This document shows positions 3,571 through 49,720 of a stretch of DNA of 64,000 nt, in pieces. The notes below the pieces were generated by a model. That model was not told where the DNA came from. It did no database searches and saw nothing but the letters and a program-made list of their open reading frames with translations. This stretch comes from Morinoia aosen. Lineage: Eukaryota > Arthropoda > Malacostraca > Amphipoda > Talitridae. Location: assembly GCA_030386875.1 (NCBI GenBank), contig CM059560.1:23864683-23928682 (forward strand), in the 5' to 3' direction. The position numbers were made by a program, and so were the translations under genes. How positions within the stretch are numbered: position 1 is the first letter of the stretch; each line of letters starts with the position of its first letter.

Positions 3571-3573
3571 GTG

Positions 3574-4147: not shown

Positions 4148-4151
4148 AGAT

Positions 4152-5468: not shown

Positions 5469-5472
5469 AGAT

Positions 5473-6155: not shown

Positions 6156-6161
6156 ACACGA

Positions 6162-7085: not shown

Positions 7086-7091
7086 ACACGA

Positions 7092-8038: not shown

Positions 8039-8925
8039 ATCGGCGACTCACATTTACGAGCCTTGTGCAAGTACTTTCTGTGATACCAGCACCATTCCTC
8101 CTCCAGATTGTCTCGTGAATCCTGGCCCTGAACGGTATTTGAACTACCGGCCCTCTGATGTTTAAATGAACGATTCACTCTTTTGTGTCTGTCAAACGGA
8201 ACGGTGTGTGTGGGATTATCGGCTTGCTGATACGCCGCTGTTTGGTGTGCAACCCCATGAACTCTATCCGCGTGTTCGGCTTGCTGGGTAGCAACTTCTA
8301 GTGCTCCAACTCGCTGAACTAACTCGCGCAATAATCTTTCCGTTTCGTTTGGACTGGTTTGATTGACCATTGGAGTAGCGGCAGAGCTATTCGGTGTCTG
8401 GTTTTCACAGGCAAGAATTTTCTCGGCTAATTCTGCGAGAACGTCCAGGTTCACAGAGAAATCCTGTGTATGGAGGAATGGTTGCAGGCGTACGGGCAAG
8501 CGTTGGATGTACAATGTCTTAAGGGTATCGTCATCCATCACCCCCTTCGCCAATTTCCACATTTCTTTAAGTAACTCTAGAGGTGTTTGGCTATTGTAGG
8601 TGGTGAGATTACTCGTCAAAGCCTGGATTCTTTGGGCTCTATCCTTGCTGTAACGTTTTAAAACATGATCTTTGAGGGTGGAATAAGGTTCGGTTGAGTT
8701 AGCGTTGCAAACCCCAGAGAGGTCGTCTAGGCAAGTAGTGGGCAGGGCCCTTAATAACGAGTAATATTTAATTTTTTCGGAATCGATTGATAGGCTTTCG
8801 AAATGTTCTTCGGTTTGGAAGAACCAAGAGTCCAAACTTTGAATCGCGAACGGCGTTAGTTTAACAGAAACCGCCTGACTGTCGTTACTATCGTTTGGAG
8901 CCATAATGCTTCTAATGTTCCCCAA
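7987..8925 (-). CDS. gag: Gag polyprotein, CsRn1-like Ty3/gypsy
   Basis: The 312-residue ORF has the Ty3/gypsy capsid pattern (SWFFQTEEHFES, YYSLLRALP, LKDHVLKRYS, LLKEMWKLA, LYIQRLPVRLQPFL). A C-terminal knuckle is spaced Cys-x2-His-x9-Cys-x4-Cys (CWYH through MC), unlike the usual CCHC. The natural start may be the second Met (MAPND) at 8904. It forms the capsid that packages element RNA. It is the only open, undamaged gene of this element. The final codons carry the frameshift heptamer for pol. Confidence 0.85.
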   Translation of the reverse strand: MGNIRSIMAPNDSNDSQAVSVKLTPFAIQSLDSWFFQTEEHFESLSIDSEKIKYYSLLRALPTTCLDDLSGVCNANSTEPYSTLKDHVLKRYSKDRAQRIQALTSNLTTYNSQTPLELLKEMWKLAKGVMDDDTLKTLYIQRLPVRLQPFLHTQDFSVNLDVLAELAEKILACENQTPNSSAATPMVNQTSPNETERLLRELVQRVGALEVATQQAEHADRVHGVAHQTAAYQQADNPTHTVPFDRHKRVNRSFKHQRAGSSNTVQGQDSRDNLEEEWCWYHRKYLHKARKCESPMCPLYVLLYPKNGNSAA

Positions 8926-8992
8926 AGAATTATTGATAACGCGCGTTGCAACAGCTTTTGGTTTCGTACAAGTTTTATTTTACTTTTGTGCT

Positions 8993-14992: not shown

Positions 14993-16084
14993 TTGTTTAG
15001 GTTTTGGAAGCGGATAACTAGCACCCCATCCAATCCTAACATGATAGAGCTTTTATCTGAACTTAAAAATTATATTTCAACTTCCCAGGTGTCAAACTTA
15101 AGTGATACCATTCCTACTTCTGTGCCTACTAAGGTTTCAATTTCTGATGTTCCCTTGAATATCTTTAGAGCCCCTCAGTTGACGTTAAAGAAGTTTAGCG
15201 ACAATGAGGGCTGTCCTTTTGATTTTCTTCATTTTCAAGAGTCCTTTCTTAATGCCCTGCAAGCTTATCCTAGTATGAGTGAGGGGCAAAAATTTATCTT
15301 TTTGAAAAATCAGCTTCAAGGGAGGGCTCTCAGTCTTGTTGAGGGTCTTCCTAATGAAGAGTCTAGTTTCCGATCTGCTTGGGCTTTACTCAAGCAAGAT
15401 TTTTTAAATGCTGACAAACTAATTTCTATGGCTCTTGATGAGTTAATCAGCTGTCCTGGTGTTCAGAGCTTAGCCGAAATAGGGAATTTCCTCTCTAAGG
15501 TTAAGTTTCGTCTACTCGAGCTATCTAAGTTGGGGTTAGACTTCTGTAGTGAGAAGTCTGGCAACCTACTGTTTTCTTCTATTATTAAAACTAAACTTCC
15601 TGACTTTTTCCTTCTAGAAATCCTTCGCTATTTTAAAGCGAGTTTCTTTTCATTAGAAATGTTTGAGAATGCACATCAGGTGCTTTCTCTTTTTGAAACA
15701 AAAAATAACAATAAACCTAAACCATCTCTTCTCGTCCGAAATGAGGGGGTGGGGGGAATTACCCGAGCTGAAGTTAGGGACAAAATTAGACCTTCTCCTG
15801 TGCTCGATAAGTTGCCCAGTGTTAAGGTTTGTCGTTTCTGTAATTTAACTGGCCACTCGTCCTTTTCTTGTAAGAAATTTGACACTCACGTAAAACGCGT
15901 GAAACGAGTTGGTGAGTTACAATTGTGTACAGTTTGTCTAAGCGGCAAACATTTAATTTCCGAGTGCCCTGCAAAAGTTAAGGGTCTTCCATTTTCTTGC
16001 TCTTTATGCAAAGCTAACAATCACGTTAGCCCTATGTGTCCCAAATTTGTAGCATTCTCTACTCTTGCTACCGCCTCCTCATGA
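14993..16084 (+). CDS. gag: BEL/Pao gag with zinc knuckles, ending in UGA-CGG
   Basis: This gag segment carries the BEL capsid pattern: LTLKKFSDN...FDFLHFQESFLNAL, SEGQKFIFLKNQLQGRAL, SSFRSAWALLKQDF. Three Cys/His knuckles follow: CRFCNLTGHSSFSC, CTVCLSGKHLISEC and CSLCKANNHVSPMC. The first residues (about 1-15) may not be native, since the N-terminal part of a BEL gag is missing. The stop TGA at 16082-16084 is followed by CGG, and pol continues in the same frame 21 bases later. BEL elements usually have one gag-pol ORF, so this is either a readthrough stop or a single nonsense mutation. Confidence 0.8.
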   Translation: MFRFWKRITSTPSNPNMIELLSELKNYISTSQVSNLSDTIPTSVPTKVSISDVPLNIFRAPQLTLKKFSDNEGCPFDFLHFQESFLNALQAYPSMSEGQKFIFLKNQLQGRALSLVEGLPNEESSFRSAWALLKQDFLNADKLISMALDELISCPGVQSLAEIGNFLSKVKFRLLELSKLGLDFCSEKSGNLLFSSIIKTKLPDFFLLEILRYFKASFFSLEMFENAHQVLSLFETKNNNKPKPSLLVRNEGVGGITRAEVRDKIRPSPVLDKLPSVKVCRFCNLTGHSSFSCKKFDTHVKRVKRVGELQLCTVCLSGKHLISECPAKVKGLPFSCSLCKANNHVSPMCPKFVAFSTLATASS

Positions 16085-16105
16085 CGGTTAAAGGCACGTC
16101 TTCGG

Positions 16106-18213
16106 ATGTGCCCTCTTGTAGCTCTTTCTACTAAGTATGGCGGGGTAGTTAAGAGAATTAATTTCTTAATCGATACGGGTAGTCAGAAATCCCTTATCGA
16201 CTTAGCTACTGTAATCCCTGATGGTTCTACAGTTGATTTGCAGGAACTTACTGTTAACACTGTAGAAGCTTCTGTCCCGTTAAGGGGTAAGCAAATTAAC
16301 ATTGAACTCGTGCTTCCAGACAGTGAGAAGTACGAGCTTGATGTCTTCGCCATGCAGAACTTGAACCTGCAGATGGGGATCAAGGGTCTGCAAGCTAAAC
16401 TTGCTCAATTTAAAACTAAGTTTCCTCTGTCCACTTCCTTTCCGGAAATAGTTGAGGATAGTATTCAAGTTAACGGCATTTTGGGTGTCGATGCTCTTCA
16501 AGCATTTAGGGTCCTTGAGTTACAAAACGTTGACAACTATAAGGTCATGCGTGTTTCAAATGGGCTTCTACCTTTCGGGGACTTTAAGTGCTATAAATCC
16601 TCTCTATCTCATGTTGTTGCCTCTGAAGCTAAGACGATAGACAGTTGCTCGGCAACTTCTGTTGTCAAGGTTGATAACACTCATTTGAGTAAAACGTTCT
16701 CTTCTTCTGCTTTCACAACTAAATCGAAATCTAAAAGAAAAAAGTCTAAATGTAAATTAAACCAACCCCGTTACCGAAGTACTCTGAAGACATTTTTTGA
16801 TACTCCTAAAGTGTGTTCTTCCGTGTTGGACGTTACCGAGCAATGTGATGTACAAGCAGGTCTTGATAAACTATTGGACTTGGAGCTTATAGGGGTGCCC
16901 TCGAAAGAGGAGGAGTATGACAAAGAATTGGAGGATTTCAAAAGTAGTGTCACTTATGCGGAAGGCAGGTATTCTATCATGTTGCCGTGGAATCGAAATT
17001 TATTAGCTAAAGTTCCTCATAGTTTCGGGCTAGCGAGGTTTCTTGCACGTAAAGTTGCAGTTGATAATGCTCGTAGGGGGATTGAGAAGGAGTATAATGA
17101 TGTTTTCCTTGAGCAACTCGAATTAGGAATAATAGAACCTTTGCCTCTCAAATCTTTGGACGTGCGAGTGCACAAATGGATTCCTCACCGACCTGTCGTG
17201 CGTGAGCATTTCGAAACCTCTAAAATTCGCCCTGTCTTTAACTGCTCTCTGAAGATAGGAAAGTTACCAAGTCTGAACGAAGCCTCGTATGTAGGTCCAA
17301 ATCTTATGAACAATTTTTTGGGTCTCTTGGTGTATTTTCGTGCTAACTCCATAGTCATACTCTCTGACATTTTTAAAGCTTTCCTTCAGGTAAAATTAGC
17401 CTGTGAATTTGACCGCAATCAATTTAGCTTTGTCCTTTACAAGGACGGTAAATTTCAGTACTTCCGATACACGACTCTGTTGTTCGGGTTTGTTGCATCT
17501 CCCTATATTCTTAACTATCTTCTTAAACTTCATGCTGACACTTTAACTGACTTAGTAATTAGAGACGTTATGGCCAATAAGCTGTACGTCGATAACTTAG
17601 TCTTTACCACTAATAGTCCTGAGCTTGCGCTTAGCACTTTTCAACGCACTAACCGAGCCTTTGAGGAGAGTGGGTTTCCGTTGCGTAAATGGCAATCCAA
17701 TAACTCTGAACTTCTTTCGCAAATTGACCCTTCTCTTTGTAGTGCCGAAGTGCACTCCAGAGTGCTAGGGTATAATTATAATTCTTCCTCTGATCTTCTT
17801 TCTCTGTCCCTGAAAAGTTTGGATTCTTCCTGTAAAACGCGCAGGAGCATTCTGTCTGCAGTTGCGTCACTGTACGACCCATTAGGGGTTTTGCTTCCTT
17901 TTTCGGTACGTGGTAAGCTCATTTTACGCAAGTTAACGCCTTTGAGACTAGGATGGGATCAAGATGTCCCAGACGAGTTACGTAAGGACTGGCGTGATTA
18001 TTGTCAGGAGTTTTCTGAGTTGAGTAATTTCGAGTTCCCTAGAATGAATTTGGACGAAACCAAAAATGTTAAACTTTTAGTGTTTTGTGACGCTAGTGCT
18101 AGCACCTTTGGCACTTGTATTTACGGTGTTCAAGAGGAACGCAGTACGCTCCTGTTCTCTAAAGTTAAGGTTTCGCCTCCTCGCCAAAGAACTCCTCCTT
18201 CTGTTTATATTCC
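16106..18213 (+). pseudogene. pol: BEL/Pao pol, protease, RT and start of RNase H; cut by a SINE
   Basis: The protease motif FLIDTGSQKSLID is followed by the RT: RPVFNCSLK, LSDIFKAFLQVKL, LLFGFVASPYILN, and the catalytic box KLYVDNLVF, with Asn at the second Asp position of YVDD. Then comes the A17-type connection (LYDPLGVLLPFSVRGKLILRKL) and the start of RNase H (LLVFCDASASTFGTCIYG). The frame runs into a SINE at about 18214 and reaches a stop at 18238. It is in the same frame as gag. Confidence 0.85.
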
Positions 18214-18478
18214 GTGCTCCCCGTGGCACAGCGGTTAAGGGATCGGACTTGTATGCTGGAAGTCGCGGGTTCGTTCCCAGCGCTGGCGCGGAGATTTTCC
18301 CCGTTGGGTATAAGGGAAAGCTCAAAAGCACAATACCCCACTCAACCCAGGTGTCGGAAATGGGTACCGGCTTTACGGGGGAACCGTCATGGTGTCCTAT
18401 ATATAGGGTTAGTTATAAGACATTTGAAAAACCAATGCTAAGATCCTATGTATCAGGCTTGATTGGAAATAAAGCATC
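18214..18478 (+). mobile_element. tRNA-derived SINE inserted in BEL pol
   Basis: An A box (TGGCACAGCGG, 18224-18234) and a B box (GGTTCGTTCCC, 18268-18278) are spaced as in a tRNA gene. The body is about 150 bases, and the 3' end forms CCAAT-stem-ATTGG (18432-18466) followed by GGAAATAAA. CCAAAGA occurs at 18184-18190 and 18479-18485 and may be the target duplication, which would place the start of the insertion earlier. The 3' end closely resembles the family B and A LINE tails. RNA polymerase III would transcribe it from the internal boxes. Confidence 0.8.
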
Positions 18479-18484
18479 CCAAAG

Positions 18485-20713
18485 ATGCCGATGTTAACCT
18501 GTGAACTTTTGGCCGTATTTCTTGCCTATCAATGTCTTGTATCTCTGATGTGTGACGTTAATTTCCCTCATAAGGTCTCGAGCGTAATTATGTTAACGGA
18601 CTCCCAAGTCACCTTAGCTTGGTTGTTGAGCGGCAAACCTCCCCGAAAAAATGTATTTGTAAGCAATAGACTAAAAGACGTAGAAGACATGCGTAAAACA
18701 TTAGAATGTAAAACTTCGGCTTCCTTCAGCTATGAGTATGTTCCCACTATGTTTAACGTGGCAGACATGCTGACACGTGTTGTTAAAGCTTCTAAGTTTT
18801 TACAAAGTAATATGTTATGGTTAGAAGGTCCTTCTTGGATAAGAGAAAGTAAGGATAAATGGCCCAAGGGACACTTGGGTTGCATTCCGCACCAATTTGT
18901 TTCAGATGCATGTATCGCAGTTAATATTAATCCCCCACGTCAAGCTTCGATTGTGGAGCTTGAACGATTTTCCTCCTATCCCAAACCATTGGGTACGATA
19001 GAGAAAGTATTTAGAGCTGTCGCTATCTTTAGGCGTGCAGATGGGGGTGAGGCTAAACTGCGAGCCTTTTTGTATCTTATTTCTTCTATGCAAAAAGCGC
19101 ATTTCGCAGACGAGATCGAGGCCTTAACTAACAAAAGTCCTCGTCCGCCTCTGCTAGTTCGATCCTTTAATCTTTTTCTAGACTCTCACGGTTTAGTTAG
19201 ATCTAGTAGCCGTATTGTTGCCGCTGAAGAGTTGGATTACAACACTAGAAATCCTATTTTGTTGGCTAGCACTTCTCATTTGACTAATCTGTTAATTTTG
19301 CATACGCATAAATGTTTAAACCATCAAGGTATTGACACCACCGTGCAGAAGCTTAAACTGGACGGTTATTTAATACCGCGCTGTAAGCGTGTTGTTCGTA
19401 GCGTGTTATCTAAGTGCATAGTTTGCAAAAAGGTAAACGCAAAAGCCTTCTCCTATCCTGATCCTCCTGCTTTACCTGACACTCGAGTAAACTTTGTAAG
19501 GCCTTTCGCCACAACGGGAATGGACTTCTCTGCCCATTTCTGGGTATTAGATCCTTTTGGTCATAAACAAAAGGTATATCTTTTATTATTCACTTGTTTC
19601 CAAACCAGAGCCATTCATATCGAGCTTCTTCCTTCCATGACGTTGGAAGAATTTTGCTTCGCCTTCATTCGTTTTACCAACGAAAAAGGCGTCCCTAATA
19701 TCGTGTATTCCGATAACGCTAGAACTTTCTTAGCGTCTCCTGATCTTCTGTCGGAAGTTTTAACTTCTTCTTTGTATGAAGATCGTTTTCGCACCTTTAA
19801 CGTTAAATTTAAAACTATCCCGATCTACAGTACTCAATTTGGGGCGATCTGGGAGCGTTTGTTCAAATCCATTAAGGATTGCTTGTATAAACTTTTTGGT
19901 CGCAGTACCTATCCATATTCTACCTTCCTTACTGCCATTTCCGATATTACCCTTCATCTCAATCGGCGTCCTCTTTCTTACACAGAGACGGGGGACACTA
20001 TCTTGCCTATTATGCCTATTCAATTCCTTCAACTGTACCCTACCTCTAATTCTTTAATCCTCTCTGATGAGATTCCGGACATGGAAGCCGAAGACGGTGA
20101 GCACCGGGAGCATTTGCTCTCAGCCTTAGAGCGGCGCGACGTAATGGTTGCCAAGTTCCGGGAGCTCTGGTACTCTCAATACTTACTTTCTTTGCGCGGT
20201 CCTTATCCGCTTAGATCTCTCCCTCTCAATCATAAGTATTTATCTGTGGGTCAGGTTGTCCTACTTAGGCATCCTGTAACACCTAGACCATTTTGGACCC
20301 TAGTTCGCATCATCGCTCTGCTGCCTGGACGCGATGGCAAGGTCCGTGTTGTTAGAATAGTTAAAGCTGACAACTCTGAAACTGCCGTTAAAATTTCTCT
20401 GCTATACCCTCTGGAGTTGGCTATTTCTACTACTTCTTCAGAGGAGGGGTGGGAAAGTGCAGACGGGAGTTCGAGTGAGGAGTTCCATCCTCGTCTCGAG
20501 CCTCCCGAGAGTTCCTTTTCTCGTGCGGGTAGCTCTGTTTCTCATGAACGCCCTAGAGGTCAGCATTCTTCTTCTTCTTCTTTCTCTTCTGAATCGGACT
20601 CCTCGGCCCAGTCCGAGGAACCCGAAGCTGCGTCAGGTGCCCAGCCCAAAAGGCAGGCAGCGAGTCGGCAACGTAGTAAGCTGGCATACTTGATCAAGAA
20701 AGGTCACATCTAG
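18485..20713 (+). pseudogene. pol: BEL/Pao pol, RNase H to integrase and C-terminal domain
   Basis: After the SINE, pol resumes with RNase H (TCELLAVFLAYQCL, MLTDSQVTLAWL, VPTMFNVADMLTR). Integrase follows: a zinc-binding H-H-C-C (HTHKCLNHQG, CIVCKK), the core (TTGMDFSAHF, IVYSDNARTF, IYSTQFGAIWERL giving D, D, E), then the BEL-specific C-terminal domain (VGQVVLLRHPVTPRPFWTLVRI). A Ser/Glu-rich tail of about 100 residues ends at 20713. The segment itself is fully open. Only the upstream SINE breaks the polyprotein, so the insertion may be fairly recent. Confidence 0.88.
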
Positions 20714-21442: not shown

Positions 21443-22450
21443 AAGAAAAAGAAAAAAAGAAAAACGTTTATTTTCCAAGTTGCCACATGAGAGACATGCC
21501 AACATATTGGGTTTTAAAAAATTTCTTAATATAGGACGTCCTAAAACAAAAATTCCATACTAGTACTAATTGCCAAACCATCAGAGGTGCACAAATAGAT
21601 AAGCCATACGAGGCATAATAATAGACAAACCATGCAAGGTGTACTTATAGATAAACTATCAGAGGTGTACACATAGATAGACAATACGGGGCATATTAAT
21701 GGACAAAATATACGAGGCGTACTAATAGACGAACCATACGTGGCGTGCTAATAGTCTAAAAAAAGTTCCACACGAGGAGAACTAATTGACAAACCATCCG
21801 AGGTGTACAAATAGATAAGCCATACGAGGCATAATAATAGGCAAACTGTACGAGGTGTACTAAGAGACAAAATATCAGAGGTGTACAAATAGATAGACCA
21901 TACGAGGCATATTAATAGACAAAATATACGAGGCGTACTAATAGACAAACCATACATGGCGTGCTAATAGTCTAACTCTGTCAAGGTTAGTTGAATGAGA
22001 AATGAAAAATATCATCTCTTGGACATTTTATATTCCAAGAAATGGCTAACAACTTATAAATAATTCGAAATTTCGAACACTGCTAAGGAATTATTCGAAA
22101 CACCCAAGTTCTTAGTTGAAATTATCGAAGTAGGAAAAAGACAAAAAACGCTATACGGGAGCAGATTGAAACCCCATCGTAAATGACAATCAAGTATTGA
22201 GAAAAGGGTAGTCACGAAGTAATTTATAAAGAACATCGAAGTAGGAAAAAGACTAAAAAACGCTATACCGGAGCAGATTGAAGCACCATCGTAAATGACA
22301 ATCAGGTATTAGAAAAGGGTAGTCACGAAGTAATTTATAAAGAACATCGCGCAACACAGCACGCACATCTGGAAATGCGTAAACAAACTTACACTCAAAA
22401 ATGTAATGCATGGCTTGTTCAGCATACAAATATAGAGATAATTTTTGCAC
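21443..22450 (-). mobile_element. LINE-tail repeat family A, copy A2
   Basis: This is homologous to copy A1 (6162-7085) over its whole length: the same T/C-rich tail, GGAAAATAAACG, terminal hairpin (21470-21505), tandem 28-33-bp array and right-hand end (TACAAATATAGAGATAATTTTTG). It differs by an extra tandem duplication of about 109 bp (about 22128-22236 and 22237-22345). No coding capacity. It truncates the region downstream of BEL pol. Confidence 0.75.
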
Positions 22451-38635: not shown

Positions 38636-39085
38636 TTGAGTGCTAGTGTTTCTTCTATAGGCGTATTGATTTCGGTGTAGATTTGACTCGTCCAGGTGAA
38701 ATGACAGTTGATTTGTCACCACTTTCTCCAATATTTTGGACATAAAAGGTAAAAGACTGATGGGCCTGTAGTTTGATGCTGTATTTAGGTCACCACTTTT
38801 ATGCAACGGTCTAATAATGGAGTGTTTCCATTGGTTTGGAAACGTGTTTGTTACTATTGATGTATTAATTATCAGACGAATCCATGTTGCTGTGACAGGG
38901 AAACTGTCTTTGATATATTGAAGACTGATACCATCATGTCCGACTGCCTTTGTGTTTTTTAGTGAGTATAAGATATTTCTCAACTCCGGTAAATCGACAG
39001 GACGTGGTCTCCACCTGACATCAGCCTTCGAGGATGCAGTGGGGCATGAATTTTCATTTGACGTTTCACCTGGACTGGTACACAC
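38636..39085 (-). pseudogene. CR1-like LINE RT, N-terminal part
   Basis: LRNILYSLKNTKAVGHDGIS, FPNQWKHSIIRPLHKSGD, NYRPISLLPFMSKILEKVV and NQYAYRRNTSTQD are the first RT motifs, before the nested plus-strand LINE. The frame starts abruptly at 39085, where the plus-strand LTR element begins (TGTGG at 39086). The LINE endonuclease is not found on the other side of that element, so the LINE was already truncated or the region was rearranged. Confidence 0.82.
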
Positions 39086-39737
39086 TGTGGTGTATTGCTA
39101 CGCCAGGCACGTATTCCTACGCGCGGCCAATCACAGGGCTGCACCCGTCAGCGGGTTGCTTGTGTACACATCGTAATTTGTGTTCACGGACGCTTTGGTG
39201 TTCCAATGTGTTTATTCTGTTTAGAATTACACATGCGACGTTTTTTACGTTGTAAGCTGCTCCGTTTGAGTGGCAGGAGGTATTTTGTGGGATCTACTTC
39301 CTGACGTATGGAGCGTCGATTGGTGCGCCGGCCTTGGCATTATTGCGTCTGCTGCTGCCGAGTGAGGTTGAGCGCGTTTGAGCTTCCGGTTTCGCTCTTG
39401 AAGTATCGTTGCGAGATACTTGTGTTGTGTTCTTTTCCTTGTGCTGAGACACAAGCAGGTAGGACCTGTAGGCGTGTTGTGTGCCTGTGTGTTTGAGTGT
39501 GTTCAGACTCACCACACTAGCTTGGAGCTAGTGTGTGCTTCCGTTTCTGCCGTGAAGGGTGCTCGTTTCACGGCAGCGTGTGTTCACACTGGGTGTGCCC
39601 TCTGACACACGAGCTCAAGTGTGTGTCTGGCGTCGGCTGTAGGGGAGGTTCGGAGGCCGACCCGAGCTCTGGGAGCTCGGCTTTGAGATCTTGGGTCTCG
39701 GGATTTGCACATCCCACTACAAGCTATCTAGGCTTTT

Positions 39738-40703
39738 TTGCCTTGCCTTATGTCGGAGGTACGTAAGGCAGGGACTGCGTCATCGAGAGATGATGCAGGG
39801 TCGCCCGAGGCGGCTAGTGGTGCGTCTGGGACAGCCACCACGGTTGATCTTAGGCAACTGGCCAGCATCCTGATGCAGGCTAAGGGGCCTATTATTGACC
39901 GATTGGGGAGAGCTCTCCCCAAGTTCAGCGGCGACGGCACAGTGGATGTGTCGGAGTGGCTGGATGACCTTGAGCGTAGGTGCAAGGTCGAACAGGTTGG
40001 ACCTGAGGAGGTCGTAGACTTCCTGCTCGAGGGCAATGCTGCTCGGGTGTTCCGCGCCCTTAGGGTGTCGGAGGCCTCCCAGTGGGAGGTAGTGAAGGCG
40101 ACACTGCTGGCGCAGTACGGCATGTCGCGGCAGGAAGCCTACAGGCGCTTCACGGACCGTCAGCTTCAGGCTGGCGAGGCCGTGGACGTCTATGTGGACG
40201 ACCTGCAGCGCCTAGGCGCTCGGCTGAGGGCAGGGCCGGAGGACTTGATCTTCCGGGTCAAGTACCTTGAGGGCCTGCCTCAAGCCATCCGTAAGTGGGC
40301 AGTGATGCTCCCGGAGGTTTACACCTCCAGCTTCGACGAGTTGCTGTCGAAGGTGCGCGACAGGGTGTCCGCACAGCGTGCTGCTGATGGCCTTACTTAT
40401 GCGAGTAAGGCCAAGGCAGCCGCAGCTTCTTCCGGGAAGAAGCCTGGGCTTGTATGCCCAAGGTGCACAGGACCTCACCGGGTGAGGGACTGTACCCAGA
40501 CTCGCCGCAAGGCGAAGGCAGTGCCTCCTTCGAACAGCAGGAAAGAAAGCTTATGCTTTCGCTGCCCGAAGCCCGGGCACATTGCTCGGGACTGCCCAGA
40601 GCCCACAGCTGCCGCTGGCGGCGCTGATTGCGGTTCGGGTTTCCGCACGGAGGAAGTGGAAAGGGGCACCGCTTCTTCCGGCGTGGAAACCATGGAAGTC
40701 TAG
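39738..40703 (+). CDS. gag: Gag polyprotein of the hairpin-dense Ty3/gypsy-like element
   Basis: The 321-residue frame has a capsid domain (LPKFSGDGTVDVSEWLDDLE, VVDFLLEGNAARVFRAL, AQYGMSRQEAYRRFTDRQ, VDVYVDDLQRLGARL) and two zinc-binding motifs, CPRCTGPHRVRDC and CFRCPKPGHIARDC. The start is probably the second Met (MSEVRK). It overlaps pol by 76 bases in the -1 frame. It is undamaged. The coding sequence is threaded with perfect palindromes and hairpins, which must constrain codon choice. Confidence 0.85.
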   Translation: MPCLMSEVRKAGTASSRDDAGSPEAASGASGTATTVDLRQLASILMQAKGPIIDRLGRALPKFSGDGTVDVSEWLDDLERRCKVEQVGPEEVVDFLLEGNAARVFRALRVSEASQWEVVKATLLAQYGMSRQEAYRRFTDRQLQAGEAVDVYVDDLQRLGARLRAGPEDLIFRVKYLEGLPQAIRKWAVMLPEVYTSSFDELLSKVRDRVSAQRAADGLTYASKAKAAAASSGKKPGLVCPRCTGPHRVRDCTQTRRKAKAVPPSNSRKESLCFRCPKPGHIARDCPEPTAAAGGADCGSGFRTEEVERGTASSGVETMEV

Positions 40704-41815
40704 GTATTTCCACTAGCCTCTCTACGAGAGGCTTGGCTGTCAGGGACGTCCAACAGCGTCCTGGGGACGTTGTCGTGACCGGCGCTCATGCGCCTGTCAC
40801 GGGTAAGCAGGGCTTACCCATGGCAGCTGGTAGGCTTACTTCGAGTAGCATGCCAGTTGTCAAGGCCATTGTGAATGGCCATTCTGCCTTGTGTCTGGTT
40901 GATACCGGCAGCGGGTGCACGATGGTGTCCACCCGGGTGGTGGAGGGACTGTCGGGCCGCAAGGCCCGACATTTTGTGACGGCTGATGGCAGAACTTCCT
41001 CTAAGGGGAAGGAATGTCAGGCAGTCGTGCAGTTGCATGGGCACTCTTTTGGAGTGTCAGCAATTGCAGTTGAAGGGTTGGAGAATCTTGGCGTTGACTG
41101 CCTCTTGGGTGACGATGCAATCGATCACATGGGAGGAGTCACTGTCAGAAGAGGACCCAACTCTCGGTACCAGGTTGAGTGGGGTCAACCCACCTCTGCC
41201 AGGTGCTGTGGTAGTGCTCCCATGAAGGGAGGTCGTGAGGTTGTTTGTGGGGTTGACTCACTTATGATTAGTGATCACGACTTTGAAGCCACGTTTTCTA
41301 ACGGTCATTGGACCGTTAGTTGGCGTTGGTCTGCCGGCGAGCCGACGCAGCTTCAAACTGGTGTTGGCGAGTACAAGTGTACGCGCGCGCCAGGCGTACA
41401 TGAGAGGTATGCTGAGGAGATCCAGAGTTGGATCTCTAAAGGTTGGCTGGTGAAGTGGAATGGCCCGGTAAAAGGGGTCATACCACTTTTGGCGGTTGTC
41501 CAGCCAACCAAAGACAAGGTGAGACCGGTAATGGATTACCGTGAACTTAACTTGTTCATTGAGTCTCACACTGGTGATGAGCAAACCGCTGTGTGTGCCG
41601 AGAAGGTGCGCAAATGGAGGCAGTTTGAAGGGGAGCTTAAGGTCGTTGACCTTAAGTCTGCCTATCTTCAAATTCGTGTCTCCAGTGACTTGTGGCAGTA
41701 TCAAGTCGTGAGGTATAATGGTGTGCATTATGCCTTGACTCGCCTCGGGTTTGGCTTGTCATGTGCGCCCAGGATTATGACGACCTGCCGCAAGTCTATT
41801 CAGCACTTTATTTAA
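40628..41815 (+). pseudogene. pol: Pol, protease and truncated RT of the hairpin-dense element
   Basis: The protease shows ALCLVDTGSGCTMVS and the glycine region VDCLLGDDAI. The RT starts with KDKVRPVMDYRELN, LKVVDLKSAYLQIRV and YALTRLGFGLSCAPRIM, then ends at a stop in 41813-41815, before the YxDD box. It lies in the -1 frame to gag, with slippery GGGTTTC at 40637-40643. Because RNase H and integrase are missing the copy is dead, yet the remaining frame is open. Confidence 0.8.
40637..40679 (+). promoter_or_regulatory. Candidate -1 frameshift signal, gag to pol
   Basis: GGGTTTC (40637-40643) lies in the gag frame as G-GGT-TTC. After a 5-base spacer, GGAGGAAG (40649-40656) can pair with CTTCTTCC (40672-40679), with one G.U pair. 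The pol frame is exactly -1 and opens nine bases upstream. Confidence 0.65.
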
Positions 41816-42335
41816 TTTAGCCTCCAATTGGTCCAGTTTATGGTTGGCACCGTTTGGTTCCGGTAATGGAGTTTTTTCGATTATTAGGTCAGGTTTTTGG
41901 GTTAATTCCACCTACACCGGTAGCGGTGCTTGGGTTGTTTTTGTCGGGGTTTGTTCGTAGTTTTGGTTTGTTTTTCTTTTTGGCGTTCATACTCCCGGCT
42001 TCAGAGTGGGTTTCCCCGCCTCGAAGTCGGGGTTTGAGGTATTAGCTGATTGTTGCCAGAACCGTTTAAAGTTTTAATTATGATTTAAAGTAGTGATCCA
42101 ATATGGACTATTTGTATACGTAACTCAAGTCTATTCTTAAAGATTATTTTTGGGCCCTGGAATATAGGGCAAATTAAAGAGAAGATAACTATAATTGAGA
42201 CCCAAGCTCCGAGGAGCTCGGGCCGCCGCCCGGCTTAGTTCTACCCAACAACGGGGATTTGGAAAAAAATTAAAATCTTAATCCCTCGAAAGAAAACTCA
42301 AAAGATAGAGGAAAGAGCAGTTGGGTATTTCAACG
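41816..42335. other. Unassigned, with several short hairpins
   Basis: No supported gene. Several perfect small hairpins continue the style of the upstream element (for example CACCG-GTAG-CGGTG near 41920, CCCCG...CGGGG near 42014, AGCTCC-GA-GGAGCT near 42208), so this may be another part of the same element family. Confidence 0.4.
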
Positions 42336-43595: not shown

Positions 43596-46500
43596 TCAGA
43601 TCATGTCGTAAGCATTTATTTTTTGAAGAAAGGTAACCAGCTGATCTACGGGCGCATTGTGACCAAGTATATTGCTTACTGAAGGTAGCCGGCTATTGTC
43701 AGAGAAGACATCAAAGCATTGTCTTCGCGTGTTGCGCAGCGCAGCGCAGTCGATGAGTAGGTGGCGCACCGTGAGGCGCGCCTCCAGGCACAGAGGGCAG
43801 CCAGGTGGGGGCTCCTGTACCTCACTGTTCATGAGGTAGCTGTGGGTGAGGTAGGTGTGGCCGCTTCTGAGTCGATTTAATATGACTTCCACTCGGCGTG
43901 GCAGTTTTCTTCTGGGCCATGATCCCGGTTCCAAATGGGCCTCGTGCATGAGGCTCCTCCGCTGGTGCCAGTCTTCTCTCCACTTGCCGTCGATCTTCCT
44001 CTCAAGTACCGAGAACCAGTCCCTATAAAAGGTTGGGACTCGCTCGGGTGGGCGAAGTGCAGCTGCTTTTGCTAGGCTATCGGCGGTCTCGTTACCTCGA
44101 ATCCCCACATGGCTGGGGATCCAGCAAAATTTGGTGGTTTTATGGTTCTGGGCAAGGTCGCGAATCTGATGTTGGAGAAGGCGGGCTTGAGGATGGTCCG
44201 TTCGTTTGTCAAGGAGAACTCGCAACACACTCAGAGAATCGCAAAAAATAATAAATTGGTTTTCAGAATGATCACGAATGATATGTAGTGCTAAATCAAT
44301 AGCATACAGTTCTGCAGTGAATATACTGGCTGTATGGGGAAGTGAAATCTGCTTCTGACTGCTGCTACAGAATGCAGCCGCGCCAACGCCGTCGCCGCTT
44401 TTGGATCCATCTGTGAAGATTGCACTGAAGCCTTGGTAGTTTTCGGTTTTTAGTCGGCGGTATTCTTGGATGTATGTGGTTGGATGGGTAGTTTCCTTTT
44501 TTAGGGCTGTTAGTTCCAGGTTTATGTCGACAGTGCCCGTGTTCCATGTTGGGACGTCAATGTTCAGTAGGCGGTACGAAAATGAGGGTTTAATATAAGG
44601 GGGTTCAAGATCTAGAGGTTCCATGATATTGAGGGTGCGAATGGCAAATGAAGGCATAACTTTCTTATTTATGAACAATCTTCTGTCAGTAGGTGGGATA
44701 ACAGAGTTAAATGCTGGGTTGCCCAAGTGGCTCTTCATTTTAAAATAATATTTTAAGGAAAGCAACTGCCTTCGCAGGTTCAGTGGCATTTCGCCAGTTA
44801 GAACTTGGAGGCTTGCGACAGGTGTGGACTTGAAGGCTCCGGTAGCGAGACGTAGACAGTCGTTAGCGACGGGATCCAAGCGCTTGAGGGTGGTGTTGGC
44901 AGCCGATGCGTAGACAATGCATCCGTAGTCCATTATTGACCGAACAAAAAGTTTATACATGTGGAGGAGAATGTGCTGGTCCCCTCCCCAATCGTGAGAA
45001 GATATGGATTTGAGCATAGCACATCCTTTCTTGCATTTGGCTATAATTTCATCAATGTGTTTCTTCCATGAGAGTTTTGCGTCCCAGGTAAGTCCAAGAA
45101 ATTTGATTTCCTCTACAAACTCGATCTCTTGATTTTCTATTTTTAGAGGTATGGGCATTTGAATACCGGGCAACGTGGTGAAGTGTACGGCTTTGGATTT
45201 TTCTGTTGAGAAAGTGAAACCGTTCATCTGCGTCCATCGTACGGCACGATTGATACATTCCTGGAGTTTGGTTTTTATAACATTTAGGTCACTATGCCGA
45301 TAGCCGAGCTGGAAGTCGTCGACAAAAAGTGAGGCATGAAATCGCGGATCCTGAGGGATCAGAGAGGCGATACCATTGATTTTAATGGCGAAAAGGGTGA
45401 CCGAGAGCACTGAGCCCTGCGGGACGCCTTCTTCTTGCGGGAAGGGGTCAGACAAATAATTATTTATTCGGACCCTAAAGGTCCGATCGCGCAGGAATTC
45501 TTGGATGAACGAGGGGAGTCTTCCTCGTAGTTTCATATGGTGAAGGTCCCGCATTATTCCGAATTTCCATGTTGTGTCATACGCTTTTGTAAGGTCAAAG
45601 AACACACTCACAAAGTGTTCATTGTGTACGAAAGCTCTCCTGATCGTAGTTTCAAGGCGCACTAGGTGGTCGGTTGTAGATCTGCTTCGCCTACCGCCGC
45701 ACTGGATGTTCGTGAGGCAGCCATGCATGTCACAGAAGTCCACGAGTCTATTGCTGACAAGACGTTCCATTGTTTTGCAGAGGCAACTGGTTAGTGCGAT
45801 GGGTCTGTAATTTTGGGGCGACTGTGGAGATTTGTGCGGTTTTGGAAAGGGGATTATAATGGCCTCCCGCCAGCTTGGAGGGAAATAGCCGTTTAGCCAA
45901 AGTTTGTTCATCATCGATAGTAGGTGCTGCTTGCCGGCTTCGGGTAGGTGCTTTAGCATTTGGTAGGAGATTTGGTCGGCTCCAGGAGAGGTGTCTTTGG
46001 TGTTATATAAAGCAGTCTCTAATTCTGCGGCCGAGAACGGTAGGTTGTACACTTCAGAGTTGGTGGATGAAAAATTCAAACCTTCGTTTTGGACCTTTTC
46101 TCTTTCTCGTTGGAATTCGACAGGGTAGTTGGTGGCTCTGCTTGTATTGCTGAATGTCATCGCTAGCTTGTTTGCTATTTGGGGTACGGTGGCAAAGGTA
46201 GTATTGTTTTCTTGTAAGATAGATATTCTTCGTTGGGGTTGGCCTTTTATTTTGCGGATATTTGCATAAACTGTTGTTAGAGGTGTATTTATGGTGAACG
46301 TATTTGCGAAACTTATCCACGCTTTCCGCTTTTCTTCACGTAGGAGGTTTCTGTGGATCGCTCGTGCTCTTTTCCAACGAAGAGCATTTTGTACCGATCT
46401 AGTCTGGCGGTACTTTTGGTATAGGCGTTCGCGGTTTCGTCGTGTTTCGGTCAGTTTTGCGCTCCAGTAGGGCTTTGGAAAAAAGGTTTTAATTTCAATA

Positions 46501-47330
46501 GTGGGTATGCATTCTGCAGCTACTGCTTGTATGGCATTAATGATGGCTTGGAGGTGCTCTTCACAGTTGGTTTCAGGCGCGATTTCAAGCTCGTTCCACT
46601 TTGGGTGGTTTTCATATGAGAGCCAATCTGCTCTTTTCAGGCACCACACTTTTCTGCCAGGCTCGCATTGTTGAGCGTTCATTAGCTGGATTAGGATCGG
46701 GCAGTGATCGCTGTCCTCAGGAGAGAGACAGGTGGACCACTCCAAATCTGCGTTCAGGCGGGGAGAGGCTAATGTTAGGTCTATGGCGGATTCGGAGTTA
46801 TACGAGATTCTGGTTGGGGATCCCGTATTCAGTAGGATGAAATTTGACTGTTCTATGTACTGTTCAAGAATGCGCCCCCGAGTGTCCGTGGTTCTGCATC
46901 CCCAAATTGTGTTATGACTGTTGAAGTCCCCCATAATAATGCTTGGAGTAGGGAGTTGATTTTCTAGGTCACGAAGTGCTTCTAGGGTAAGGCTATGGTT
47001 TCTTGACGTGTATATGGAGGCGACTGTAATCGGCCGACTGAGTTGGATGGTGGCTGCGATGACTTGAAGCTGAGACGTCAAAACGTGTTCTCTGAATGGG
47101 ACCGAGTTATGAATAAGCAAACCCACCCCTCCATGGGGGGTGAAGTTAAAGTGGCCATGCTTGATGAGAAGGGAGTATTGGGGTATAGAGAATGTGCAAT
47201 TGTGCCATAGCTTGGTTTCCTGTAGTGCTACGACTGCTGGTCGGTGCTGGTGTATCAATTCCAGCAGTTCGTCTTTCTTGGCTCGAACTCCTTGGCAGTT
47301 CCATTGTAGAATTGAGGTTGGGTTATTCAT
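43596..47330 (-). CDS. I-like LINE ORF2: endonuclease, reverse transcriptase, RNase H
   Basis: This open 1244-residue frame is the best-preserved pol in the window. The endonuclease occupies about residues 1-220 (SILQWNCQGVRAKK, VALQETKLW, IIMGDFNSHNTIWG, SPEDSDHCPILI). RT motifs include REAIIIPFPKPHK, VFFDLTKAYDTTW, EEGVPQGSVLSVTLF and ASLFVDDFQLGY; the FVDD box is of the YVDD/FVDD type. RNase H shows IFTDGSKSGDG, FTAELYAIDLAL, FCDSLSVLRVL and GNETADSLAKAA. A CCHC-like end (CPLCLEARLTVRHLLIDC) closes it. It would nick the target and prime reverse transcription there. Its ATG overlaps the ORF1 stop. The gene could be active. Confidence 0.92.
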   Translation of the reverse strand: MNNPTSILQWNCQGVRAKKDELLELIHQHRPAVVALQETKLWHNCTFSIPQYSLLIKHGHFNFTPHGGVGLLIHNSVPFREHVLTSQLQVIAATIQLSRPITVASIYTSRNHSLTLEALRDLENQLPTPSIIMGDFNSHNTIWGCRTTDTRGRILEQYIEQSNFILLNTGSPTRISYNSESAIDLTLASPRLNADLEWSTCLSPEDSDHCPILIQLMNAQQCEPGRKVWCLKRADWLSYENHPKWNELEIAPETNCEEHLQAIINAIQAVAAECIPTIEIKTFFPKPYWSAKLTETRRNRERLYQKYRQTRSVQNALRWKRARAIHRNLLREEKRKAWISFANTFTINTPLTTVYANIRKIKGQPQRRISILQENNTTFATVPQIANKLAMTFSNTSRATNYPVEFQREREKVQNEGLNFSSTNSEVYNLPFSAAELETALYNTKDTSPGADQISYQMLKHLPEAGKQHLLSMMNKLWLNGYFPPSWREAIIIPFPKPHKSPQSPQNYRPIALTSCLCKTMERLVSNRLVDFCDMHGCLTNIQCGGRRSRSTTDHLVRLETTIRRAFVHNEHFVSVFFDLTKAYDTTWKFGIMRDLHHMKLRGRLPSFIQEFLRDRTFRVRINNYLSDPFPQEEGVPQGSVLSVTLFAIKINGIASLIPQDPRFHASLFVDDFQLGYRHSDLNVIKTKLQECINRAVRWTQMNGFTFSTEKSKAVHFTTLPGIQMPIPLKIENQEIEFVEEIKFLGLTWDAKLSWKKHIDEIIAKCKKGCAMLKSISSHDWGGDQHILLHMYKLFVRSIMDYGCIVYASAANTTLKRLDPVANDCLRLATGAFKSTPVASLQVLTGEMPLNLRRQLLSLKYYFKMKSHLGNPAFNSVIPPTDRRLFINKKVMPSFAIRTLNIMEPLDLEPPYIKPSFSYRLLNIDVPTWNTGTVDINLELTALKKETTHPTTYIQEYRRLKTENYQGFSAIFTDGSKSGDGVGAAAFCSSSQKQISLPHTASIFTAELYAIDLALHIIRDHSENQFIIFCDSLSVLRVLLDKRTDHPQARLLQHQIRDLAQNHKTTKFCWIPSHVGIRGNETADSLAKAAALRPPERVPTFYRDWFSVLERKIDGKWREDWHQRRSLMHEAHLEPGSWPRRKLPRRVEVILNRLRSGHTYLTHSYLMNSEVQEPPPGCPLCLEARLTVRHLLIDCAALRNTRRQCFDVFSDNSRLPSVSNILGHNAPVDQLVTFLQKINAYDMI

Positions 47331-49720
47331 TGCTCAGGTCTGGATGGATTTGTTGTATATTCGTAGAAAATTTCCTCGGTTTCTTTTCTGACTGCAGGGT
47401 TGTTTTCGCTGGTTATTTCACAATCGCTGAGAGCGGAATCGTAAGTTGGGGTCATTTGTATTGATGTGGTATACAGTTCGCCGGTATCAGGATTCATACA
47501 CACTGCCTCTGTTAGTTGTTTCTTTTCCGTTGGGCGTTCCTGATGTTCGGAGTTTTTCCGCTTTCTTCGCGTGCTACAGTCCGCGGGCTTGGCGGGATTG
47601 TCTGCAGCAGACCTCGGAGATTCCACTTCCCTTGGTGGGATTTGACTTGACGCTGCATTGGGGGCGGTCGTCTGCACTGCACTGACAAAGGAGCGCCGAT
47701 ACTGCGGGCATTCTGAATCCAATTTAGCTTTGGCTTGGGCTCTACTGAGTCTAAATTTGTGTTGTATTGTTACTATTTCTTGTTGGTATTTGAATTCAAT
47801 GCATTTAATGGATCCAGTGAGATGGTTTTGGCCACAGTGGTGACATTCTATTTTTGGGCTGGTACATTCTGTGGCACTGTGATTGGCGTTGTCACACCGA
47901 GCACAGATTGTGGTGTTGCTTGAGCACCACTTTTGTGTATGCCCGTATTCCAGGCATATTTTGCAAAGCATTGGACGTGGTACGTAGGCGTATACTTTGC
48001 TTTTTGATTGTTCGCCTGGCACTGTTAGATATTCTGGAAGGTCTCCACGGAAAGTTAGTAGCAATGGTTGGGCGAGTGGGTTCTTGGGTCGAATCCATGT
48101 TGCCTTGGTCACATCGTAGAGGTCATGGTCCTCTTTGAGTCCCTTGCGGAAGTTCTCAAAATCGGACAGGTCATACTCGTATATGTAAACGAGTCCTTTG
48201 GCGGCGTTGGGGTGGCAATATTCTGAAATGGTGACAGGTATGTTATTGATTGACTTTATGCTGCGGACTGAATCGCTCTGGCGTGAGTTGTCGATTTCAA
48301 TTATAAACGAATCGTTCCCCTTAGAGGAAATGCGTTTGGGTTTAGTCCCAAGTTCTAGTTGTATGCTTTTCTCCAGAATCCACGGTGAGAGCTTGCGTTT
48401 TTCTGTTGCATCCATTTTGCAGAGAAAGTGCTTGGTGAAAGATTTTGATGTTTTTTCTGAGTATTCGTCTGAGTCGTGGTAAAGCTGTCTTGCGCGACGG
48501 ATGCCCACTTTGTGCTTTGCTTGAATTTCCACTATTTTCTGTTCTTCAATATGCTTAGGACACATTTTGCTTTTCAATGGGTGGGGGCCGCGGCAATGGA
48601 GACATTTGGCTTGTGCTTCTAGGCACTGATCGCTTGAGTGTCCCGCAGTGCCGCACTTTGCGCAGGTTGGTGGCCTGTTGCAGCGTATTTTGGTGTGACC
48701 GTACAGTTGGCAGTTGGAGCAGTGCATGGGTTTATCAATGTATGGATAAACTGGCGTGTCCGTACGTTCGCCTGGAATATATATATAGCTGGGGGGTGTT
48801 TCGGAGTTGAATTCGAGAATAAGGGCGCTGGTTTGTTCACGTCTGGTTTTAATGAAGGTAGCGTCAATGACGTTGCTGATGTTGTAAGCTTCCTTCAGTC
48901 CCGCTGCAAACTCGTCGAAGTCGCTCATGTTGTACTCATTGATATAGATGAGTCCTTTGGATTTGTTCAGTCTTGGGTGGAGCATGACTTCGCAGGGCAC
49001 GCTATTCACACTAGTGATGGTCAGCATGGCTTGTCCTTGTTTGTTGTCCCTTGCTTCGACTGTGAAGCTATCTTTGCCGCTGGTGGTAATTGACTTGGGA
49101 GGAAGTCCCGTAGCATTTATGACGCTGGCCTTTATTGCATACGGATTGAGGTTGCGTTTAGTTTCTGGTTTGAATTTCATGCAGTAAAAGCGCATGAATG
49201 TCTCTGTGCTTGGAAATTCCATGAGGTCCAGGGGGACATATTTTCGCTTCCTGGTAGGTCCAGGGGGACTGACAGGTTTTTGTTTTCCTTCTGGAGGGTT
49301 TTTTATTTTACCAATGATGTCCGACAGTTGGCTCACAGCCAATTCCACTTTTTTGATTCTCTCCTCCGTAGATGTTTCCACTGTTGCTGGGTCGCCACTC
49401 TGTACGTCCCGAACGTCGCCGCCCCGTCCCATCTCATTCAGACTCTGCATCAGCCCGCTCACTCTCCTCTCCACCTCGCTCACCCGCTCAGACGTGGTTT
49501 GCAGGGCCGCTGCGCCCACGGCCGTAGCCCCACGACGCTCCACCAGGACTCCTCCATCATTACCGCTTGTAGACTCGAGAGTTTCCCTGTTGATTGGTGT
49601 CCTGATTGACTTGATGGGGTTTGGCAAAGTTTCTCGTTTTCCTGGATTTCCCAAGTCCGGCTTGCGCTCGCTGCCTGCGCGCTTACCTCCGGACCGCGAG
49701 CCTCTCGCTCCTCTGGGCAT
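47327..49720 (-). CDS. I-like LINE ORF1 with a duplicated RRM-like and zinc-knuckle module
   Basis: The 797-residue ORF1 has a basic, Ser/Gly-rich N-terminus, then a short coiled-coil-like stretch (about 76-140). Two homologous modules of about 240 residues follow (about 175-413 and 429-663). Each has a folded domain (KGLIYINEYNMSDFDEF and KGLVYIYEYDLSDFENF) followed by three knuckles (CSNCQLYGHTKIRC, CAKCGTAGHSSDQC, CLHCRGPH in the first; CKICLEYGHTQKWC, CARCDNANHSATEC, CHHCGQNH in the second). LINE ORF1 proteins normally carry one set. The C-terminal tail is polar. It should bind LINE RNA. The stop TGA overlaps the ORF2 ATG as ATGA. Confidence 0.9.
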   Translation of the reverse strand: MPRGARGSRSGGKRAGSERKPDLGNPGKRETLPNPIKSIRTPINRETLESTSGNDGGVLVERRGATAVGAAALQTTSERVSEVERRVSGLMQSLNEMGRGGDVRDVQSGDPATVETSTEERIKKVELAVSQLSDIIGKIKNPPEGKQKPVSPPGPTRKRKYVPLDLMEFPSTETFMRFYCMKFKPETKRNLNPYAIKASVINATGLPPKSITTSGKDSFTVEARDNKQGQAMLTITSVNSVPCEVMLHPRLNKSKGLIYINEYNMSDFDEFAAGLKEAYNISNVIDATFIKTRREQTSALILEFNSETPPSYIYIPGERTDTPVYPYIDKPMHCSNCQLYGHTKIRCNRPPTCAKCGTAGHSSDQCLEAQAKCLHCRGPHPLKSKMCPKHIEEQKIVEIQAKHKVGIRRARQLYHDSDEYSEKTSKSFTKHFLCKMDATEKRKLSPWILEKSIQLELGTKPKRISSKGNDSFIIEIDNSRQSDSVRSIKSINNIPVTISEYCHPNAAKGLVYIYEYDLSDFENFRKGLKEDHDLYDVTKATWIRPKNPLAQPLLLTFRGDLPEYLTVPGEQSKSKVYAYVPRPMLCKICLEYGHTQKWCSSNTTICARCDNANHSATECTSPKIECHHCGQNHLTGSIKCIEFKYQQEIVTIQHKFRLSRAQAKAKLDSECPQYRRSFVSAVQTTAPNAASSQIPPREVESPRSAADNPAKPADCSTRRKRKNSEHQERPTEKKQLTEAVCMNPDTGELYTTSIQMTPTYDSALSDCEITSENNPAVRKETEEIFYEYTTNPSRPEQ

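Follow-up and report, generated by a model that had tools for sequence, protein, structure and literature searches.

Dense predicted short hairpins along the gag-pol sequence of a Ty3/gypsy-type retrotransposon lineage in the amphipod Morinoia aosen

Introduction

Why should the coding sequence of a transposable element be filled with perfect hairpins? The question is raised by a retrotransposon copy in a 64,000-nt stretch of the genome of the amphipod Morinoia aosen (assembly GCA_030386875.1, contig CM059560.1, positions 23,864,683 to 23,928,682 of the forward strand). This whole stretch is called the window below, and unlabelled positions refer to it. The copy starts at 39086 and appears to be the 5′ half of a long terminal repeat (LTR) retrotransposon of Ty3/gypsy type. 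A first-pass annotation, made from the letters of the window, listed 19 perfect inverted repeats running through gag, protease and reverse transcriptase (RT). It held that protein coding and folding are jointly maintained, and named a copying process that writes inverted repeats among the possible causes.

Genome-scale ordered RNA structure is known in RNA viruses. Published folding excesses are 15% for SARS-CoV-2 and 7.5–10.7% for hepatitis C virus (HCV), with a stated maximum of 23.4% for vertebrate RNA viruses (PMC7642675). Such structure is a puzzle, because many viruses have it although it restricts coding, and there is no agreement on what it is for. For LTR retrotransposons, searches of the open-access literature, judged by title and abstract, listed no report of a genome-wide folding excess.

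The answer we favour, with a probability of roughly 0.72, is that the lineage has been selected, mainly via its synonymous codons, for a genomic RNA that forms a dense chain of short local hairpins, i.e. for genome-scale ordered RNA structure. The components of this reading were computed: a folding excess that extends through all of gag-pol, that two families have and a more distant related family of the same genome lacks, and a constraint on pairing in active lineages.

Results

Stems in the window copy

We counted as a stem any perfect inverted repeat of at least 7 bp with a loop of at most 10 nt. All 19 listed repeats are present in the window sequence. Between 39390 and 41800 there are 23 stems, out of 82 in the whole window, the rest of which has about two stems per 2 kb. 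Three of the 23 (39604–39627, 39966–39989 and 40266–40284) had been missed, a fourth (40075–40089) had been given as shorter, and the stems at 39547–39576, 40388–40413 and 41298–41319 are also longer than stated. The description of stems running through gag, protease and RT holds for the 18 outside the LTR; the other five, four of them on the first list and one added here, are at 39401–39680 inside the noncoding 5′ LTR, whose stems are confined to its second half (39401 onward).

Codon-preserving shuffles, the control that had been proposed, leave the excess standing. Against 400 synonymous shuffles keeping the protein and the codon counts, gag has 9 stems (mean 1.25, maximum 6) and pol has 9 (mean 1.01, maximum 4). 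A stricter shuffle exchanged codons only among sites with the same amino acid, the same first two bases and the same next base; its means were 2.4 (maximum 7) for gag and 1.8 (maximum 6) for pol. The pairing is local: another copy of the family, L011, has 29 stems with loops of at most 10 nt in 4.8 kb, where 20 kb taken from elsewhere in the window has 24. For long loops, L011 shows a mild excess of stems over that sequence or none.

The family has at least 107 matching places in the 1.99-Gb genome, from 105 scored candidates and with partial copies included. Each of 17 counted copies carries 28–35 stems (L009 was counted with part of its flank; L018, L022 and L025, rearranged or partial, were excluded).

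Folding excess in two families and its absence from a third

Perfect short stems are one part of the excess, and the coding RNA is over-folded as a whole. Local folding of L011 was compared with 100 synonymous shuffles in four successive blocks that make up all of gag-pol, and the z-scores were −8.9, −10.3, −8.2 and −9.3. Against dinucleotide shuffles, computed for 350-nt fragments with a threshold of z < −2 per fragment, the folding excess of L011 is 29.5% with 22 of 22 fragments below the threshold, as in genome-scale structure; the truncated window copy has 28.0% (10 of 10 fragments). Five further copies have pol excesses of 27–29% (24 synonymous shuffles each).

A second family, represented by copy L049, occupies 102 matching places with nearly equal scores, many of them with an open pol frame of 1106 codons. 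Another copy, L050, is the same family again (99.3% alike to L049). The two LTRs of L049 are identical (298/298), so this copy was inserted very recently. Identity between L011 and L049 is 52% in gag and 61% in pol. L049 has an excess of 16.6% over dinucleotide shuffles (20 of 23 fragments) and, over synonymous shuffles, of 25% in gag and 16% in pol (z about −10). The excess is strongest at the 5′ end: 26% in gag, 13% in the last pol block. Compared with shuffles, the hairpins of both families have longer stems and more loops of 3–5 nt (83 hairpins against 42 in L011, 75 against 46 in L049).

A third, more distant family has a pol of 967 codons; its copy L051 has LTRs that are 99.7% alike and is thus also a recent insertion. 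Its excess over dinucleotide shuffles is 1.7%, with 4 of 23 fragments below z = −2 (the last fragments reach the flank), and the values over synonymous shuffles are −4.0% for gag and −0.5% for pol. In the RT block L011 is 70% identical to L049 and 52% to L051. A tree of 96 RT sequences places L011 and L049 in a clade of 34 (support 0.96) together with elements from Watersipora, Nymphon and other contigs; L051 falls outside this clade, and groups of unmeasured folding stand in between. Among the matches listed for queries P0003, P0013 and P0029, only these three families of the genome were distinguished by place and score. For relatives outside the genome, the collections viral_contigs, genome_contigs and phages gave no locus.

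The first-pass annotation had also judged, by eye, that neighbouring elements look different. This is mostly true: 16 neighbouring open reading frame (ORF) stretches have 0–6 stems each, the richest being an ORF of 3.7 kb at 43596–47333 (6 stems, 1.75 expected) and the stretch 18473–20713 (4 stems, 1.4 expected). Some LTR-type neighbours are nevertheless moderately over-folded. In dinucleotide shuffles a BEL-like neighbour has an excess of 8.9% (13 of 31 fragments) and a CsRn1-like one 9.4% (10 of 26), while three stretches resembling long interspersed nuclear elements (LINEs) have 2.7, −0.4 and −5.7% (1 of 24, 1 of 16 and 0 of 12 fragments); the names BEL, CsRn1-like and LINE/I-like are provisional labels. 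Per ORF, the excess over synonymous shuffles is 0.1 to 24.5% in LTR-type neighbours and −9.7 to 13.0% in LINE-like ones (eight against eight, p = 0.03); in this genome, structure may be more pronounced in LTR elements than in LINEs. The moderately over-folded BEL-like and CsRn1-like coding stretches are at 14993–20713 and 2350–8979 (minus strand).

Pairing is constrained within the family

We aligned 41 sequences, the window copy and 40 loci, some of them partial. Changes private to one copy were taken as mostly decay after insertion, and changes shared by at least three copies as changes of active lineages. Private changes are spread alike over paired and unpaired sites (701 at 2266 paired, 819 at 2514 unpaired). 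Shared substitutions number 44 at paired and 103 at unpaired sites, so paired sites evolve more slowly in comparison with the singletons (Fisher p = 0.0002). Changes found in exactly two copies are intermediate (100 paired, 138 unpaired) and, pooled with the shared ones, give p = 0.002. Leaving out sites where L011 has the minority base gives 37:695 paired, shared to private, against 93:807 unpaired (p = 0.0001).

Shared alleles also keep pairing more often. The new allele still pairs in 27 of 54 shared cases and in 221 of 740 private ones (p = 0.002); in perfect stems the pair is kept in 8 of 12 against 43 of 155 (p = 0.008). With transitions only, the fractions are 27/37 and 217/399 (p = 0.02), and for transitions in perfect stems 8/11 and 42/88 (p = 0.11). 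In the U3 part of the LTR the depletion of paired sites is absent (12:33 against 21:79). We conclude that pairing is constrained in active lineages. The proposal that coding and folding are jointly maintained is thereby upheld, together with the excess over synonymous shuffles and the stem counts of the 17 copies.

Pairing shared between families

Codon alignments of L011 and L049 were used to count predicted pairs that coincide in the two families. There are 74 in gag and 235 in pol; when the two structures are shifted against each other, no offset gives more than 12 in gag and 18 in pol. In a stricter null, L049 codons were permuted only between sites that agree in L011 codon and in amino acid (100 permutations each); it yields 20.6 shared pairs in gag (maximum 45) and 77.9 in pol (maximum 118). 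Coinciding pairs that have changed on both sides number 10 in gag (null 4.1, maximum 9) and 22 in pol (null 7.2, maximum 14). A gag null that keeps more of L049 gives 45.0 shared pairs (maximum 66) and 5.8 doubly changed ones (maximum 8). In pol, 95 of the 167 L011 pairs that are changed on both sides still pair (null 74.5 of 148, maximum 83).

Which strand is folded

Stems with one mismatch bear on whether RNA or DNA is the folded form. In transcribed L011 the mismatch is G.T in 15 stems and A.C in 3 (expected G.T share 0.61, p = 0.04); among those with at least 8 pairs the counts are 9 and 2 (p = 0.13), and in L049 4 and 0 (p = 0.20). In 36 kb of other window DNA the background is even, with 21 G.T and 20 A.C. 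These counts point to plus-strand RNA as the folded species, without being decisive alone.

Individual hairpins

All 23 stems are described on the plus strand, with stem and loop lengths written as stem/loop and conservation scored as perfect stems among 18 aligned copies. The five in the LTR are at 39401–39421 (7/7, 15 of 18), 39513–39535 (10/3), 39547–39576 (10/10), 39604–39627 (7/10, 15 of 18) and 39662–39680 (8/3, 16 of 18). The first beyond it is a 20-nt palindrome in gag (39903–39922), which is kept in 16 copies and is not kept in L049, where 6 of the 10 pairs stand. It is followed by hairpins at 39966–39989 (7/10, 16 of 18) and 40075–40089 (7/1, 16 of 18) and by a 14-nt palindrome at 40207–40220 (15 of 18). 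The hairpin at 40266–40284 (7/5) is perfect in 8 of 18; of the imperfect copies, eight have one G.U pair and two have a G.U and an A.C. Hairpins at 40331–40352 (7/8) and 40388–40413 (10/6) are kept in 15 and 17 copies, and the one at 40425–40443 (9/1) in all 18. In L049 this last hairpin reads CTGCTTCGGGGAAGCAG; 7 of 9 pairs are kept, and one T-A pair has become G-C by changes on both sides.

Further along are hairpins at 40473–40487 (7/1, 13 of 18) and 40715–40733 (8/3); of the 18 copies, the window copy alone has the latter as a perfect stem, and at least 12 others have a G.U pair instead. Those at 40801–40819 (8/3) and 40864–40880 (7/3) are kept in 13 and 17 copies. The hairpin at 40950–40971 has a stem of 9 and a GCAA loop. 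One of the 18 copies has this loop as TTGC, while most of its stem is intact; an inverted repeat has here undergone a microinversion. The stem at 41298–41319 (9/4) keeps 9 of 9 pairs in L049, with one A-T changed to G-C. Hairpins at 41378–41400 (7/9, 15 of 18), 41417–41436 (8/4, 18 of 18; 8 of 8 pairs kept in L049, one as G.U), 41526–41541 (7/2, 15 of 18) and 41636–41656 (9/3; 9 of 9 pairs kept in L049) complete the series.

A probable frameshift signal accounts for one hairpin

Retroviral and coronaviral −1 frameshift signals consist of an X XXY YYZ heptamer, a few bases and then a stem-loop. The same layout is found here. The heptamer GGGTTTC stands in the gag frame within the gag/pol overlap (40637–40643, plus strand), is present at the corresponding place in L011 and L049, and is followed by a predicted stem-loop at 40645–40682 (plus strand; −24.2 kcal/mol for the 55 nt folded). 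In local folding the helix is common to the window copy and L049, with one pair changed on both sides; the 55 nt of L049 folded alone take a partly different shape. Judging from these folding models, the hairpin behind GGGTTTC most likely drives −1 frameshifting into pol. The signal differs from the wider phenomenon in that it covers a single hairpin.

Layout of the element

By its domain order, the segment reads as the truncated 5′ half of a Ty3/gypsy-type element (Metaviridae); the Ty3/gypsy assignment rests on this order, since the RT tree included no named reference clade. Comparison of the window with 20 fetched copies, whole or partial, by blastn and the LTR pairs of whole copies place the 5′ LTR at 39086–39721 (plus strand, 636 bp). 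The LTRs start with TG and end with CA. A 5-bp target-site duplication is seen in three of six copies inspected (L010, L012 and L014) and is not clear in L011 (a tandem), L013 and L015; the window copy itself is truncated. Whole elements measure about 5.4 kb.

Directly 3′ of the LTR, at the position of a primer-binding site (39722–39733, plus strand), lies AGCTATCTAGGC, which is identical in all three families (L011, L049 and L051) and does not begin with TGG. Its complement presumably resembles a tRNA 5′ end; for both reasons reverse transcription may use an unusual primer.

The gag ORF, supported by a domain search, has its first in-frame ATG at 39750 and a TAG stop at 40701–40703 (39750–40703, plus strand). 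Its CCHC zinc knuckle scores above the Pfam cut-off and its Retrotrans_gag match slightly below (above in L011). The 5′ part of pol, with protease and the start of RT, follows in the −1 frame relative to gag (40628–41783, plus strand). Similarity to other copies stops at 41783, and the window copy thus ends inside RT. L011 shows the pol order of Ty3/gypsy elements (zf-CCHC, gag-asp_proteas, RVT_1, RVT_3, rve), with RVT_1, RVT_3 and rve under their Pfam cut-offs by 4.9, 0.7 and 1.9 bits. A search of 38900–41900 for known RNA families gave no match up to E = 1.

Two copies, L011 and L026, have in front of the 5′ LTR a sequence that matches the element's own 3′ end (15–1091 with 4793–5870 and 53–1118 with 4784–5849 of the respective copies, about 1.07 kb, 98.5–99.1% alike), so these two copies seem to stand in tandem with another copy, sharing an LTR with it. 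Elsewhere in the window, 26-bp tandem repeats (CCATACGAGGTGTAATAATAGATAAA-like) form two related arrays at 6275–6695 and 21563–21975, about 15 kb apart.

Discussion

Several other explanations of the hairpins were weighed. The main one, unlikely in our view, is that folding hides target sites from the small RNAs of the host or from RNA surveillance of another kind. Innate sensors are reported to recognise structured transcripts of RNA viruses poorly (PMC3950689). Both structured families have more than 100 matching places. The unstructured L051, however, has likewise been inserted into this genome recently; the host therefore does not force structure on every element.

A somewhat weaker case can be made for distributed packaging signals, where many hairpins are specific binding sites of Gag, and loops and stem shapes matter rather than folding in general. 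The Gag here carries a CCHC zinc knuckle, stem density is highest between the second half of the LTR and early RT, and the excess in L049 peaks at the 5′ end. The loops of L011 are C-poor and include 5 GNRA loops where shuffles have 0.9. In L049, though, GNRA loops number 2 against 0.8, no strong recurrent loop motif was found in the hairpins of either copy, most stems are not at the same sites in L049, and the excess in L011 spans all of pol.

An improbable source is the copying process that the first-pass annotation had put forward, here taken as template switching or snap-back during reverse transcription that writes perfect inverted repeats without selection. The stems are indeed short and local, many of them are perfect, both the LTR and the coding parts have them, and the inverted loop in one copy implies that such events happen. 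A strand-blind process would leave unexplained that shared substitutions shun paired sites and keep pairing, private ones less so, and that pairs shared between the families and changed on both sides exceed the null; the preponderance of G.T over A.C in L011, against the even background, also speaks against it. The proposal is not supported.

Least credible is an origin in the base composition or codon use of the element or in antisense frames that overlap it: its G+C content is high (54.7% in L011) and the window copy has antisense open frames of 130–166 codons, but the excess survives shuffles that keep protein and codon counts as well as dinucleotide shuffles, nulls that leave antisense frames unconstrained, and by the same methods L051 has no excess and LINE-like ORFs have little or none. 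Chance combined with composition is rejected by the same synonymous and dinucleotide shuffles.

A number of results weigh against selection for a hairpin-chained genomic RNA. The strand signal is weak: the plus strand is favoured in 18 of 29 windows of sequence (p = 0.08) and in 20 of 28 (p = 0.05; combined p = 0.025), and L011 has almost the same excess on its minus strand (28.0%). In one over-folded pol block of L011, perfect 7-bp stems are about as frequent as in shuffles (1 against 0.84), although stems of at least 6 bp number 9 there against 2.6 in shuffles. Within the family, changes from Watson-Crick pairs to G.U rather than A.C stand at 15:8 among shared and 170:184 among private changes (p = 0.08), and synonymous third positions alone give 11:156 against 24:183 (p = 0.11), similar in size and direction and not significant. 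Between families, the real L049 folds more than its null (317 against 237 predicted pairs in gag, 938 against 733 in pol), which explains part, not all, of the excess of shared pairs. Of the 58 gag pairs with changes on both sides, 26 can still form (null 25.9 of 55), and inside perfect stems doubly changed pairs show no excess (19 against 16.8). Of 21 testable perfect stems of L011, with three more falling in alignment gaps, only 8 are kept in L049 (null mean 4.2, maximum 9, n = 500). Finally, the structured families read are two only.

The stem comparison bears on a further prediction, that relatives lacking stems at the same sites would count against maintained folding. Such loss is found in part, and the RNA of L049 is itself clearly over-folded. 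Sharing between the families exceeds the null, yet few perfect stems are kept; the level of folding is thus conserved more than most individual hairpins, and single stems turn over.

Since most single hairpins turn over, selection for a hairpin-chained RNA would act on how folded the genomic RNA is overall. The benefit would probably lie in compactness and in resistance to nucleases and guide RNAs during packing of the RNA into particles by Gag, and a few conserved hairpins may do specific jobs. Packing of the RNA is a feature of LTR elements and not of LINEs, and in the window the LTR-type neighbours are moderately over-folded and the LINE-like ones little or not. But L051, an LTR element without the excess, shows that packing alone does not demand structure.

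The likeness to RNA viruses lies in an excess along the whole coding RNA, in stem turnover between relatives and in slower evolution of paired sites (PMC7642675). The differences are that the present case is an LTR retrotransposon, that pairing is here partly common to families and that the excess is larger (29.5%), a comparison that is approximate as shuffling method and step size differ. Among LTR elements, the genomic RNAs of Ty1 and Ty3 have been probed by SHAPE; according to the portion of that report available to us, a well-folded core makes up about 20% of Ty3 RNA, and structure is found, among other regions, at the 5′ end, around the frameshift site and at a palindrome that serves dimerisation (PMC11381356). 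The likeness is that of LTR element RNAs with structured regions; the difference is that an excess over shuffled controls is not among the results reported in that portion (PMC11381356). Ty3 uses a +1 frameshift, while the site found here is of the −1 type.

More tentatively, and with slightly less than an even chance, the trait would belong to one Ty3/gypsy clade that became hairpin-chained through synonymous selection after its split from unstructured relatives in the same genome, with an excess above the published RNA-virus values; members from Watersipora and Nymphon are then predicted to share it.

Two structured families and an unstructured relative in one host genome offer a natural comparison, with the same cell, the same defences and the same type of replication and with different RNA folding. 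As L049 and L051 are both recent insertions, this comparison may address whether packaging, stability or small-RNA escape is at stake. RNA folding can be the dominant influence on codon choice in a transposon, a point that matters for the dating and alignment of such elements. If the clade-wide reading is true, a transposon lineage would have inherited RNA folding as a trait in more than one animal phylum.

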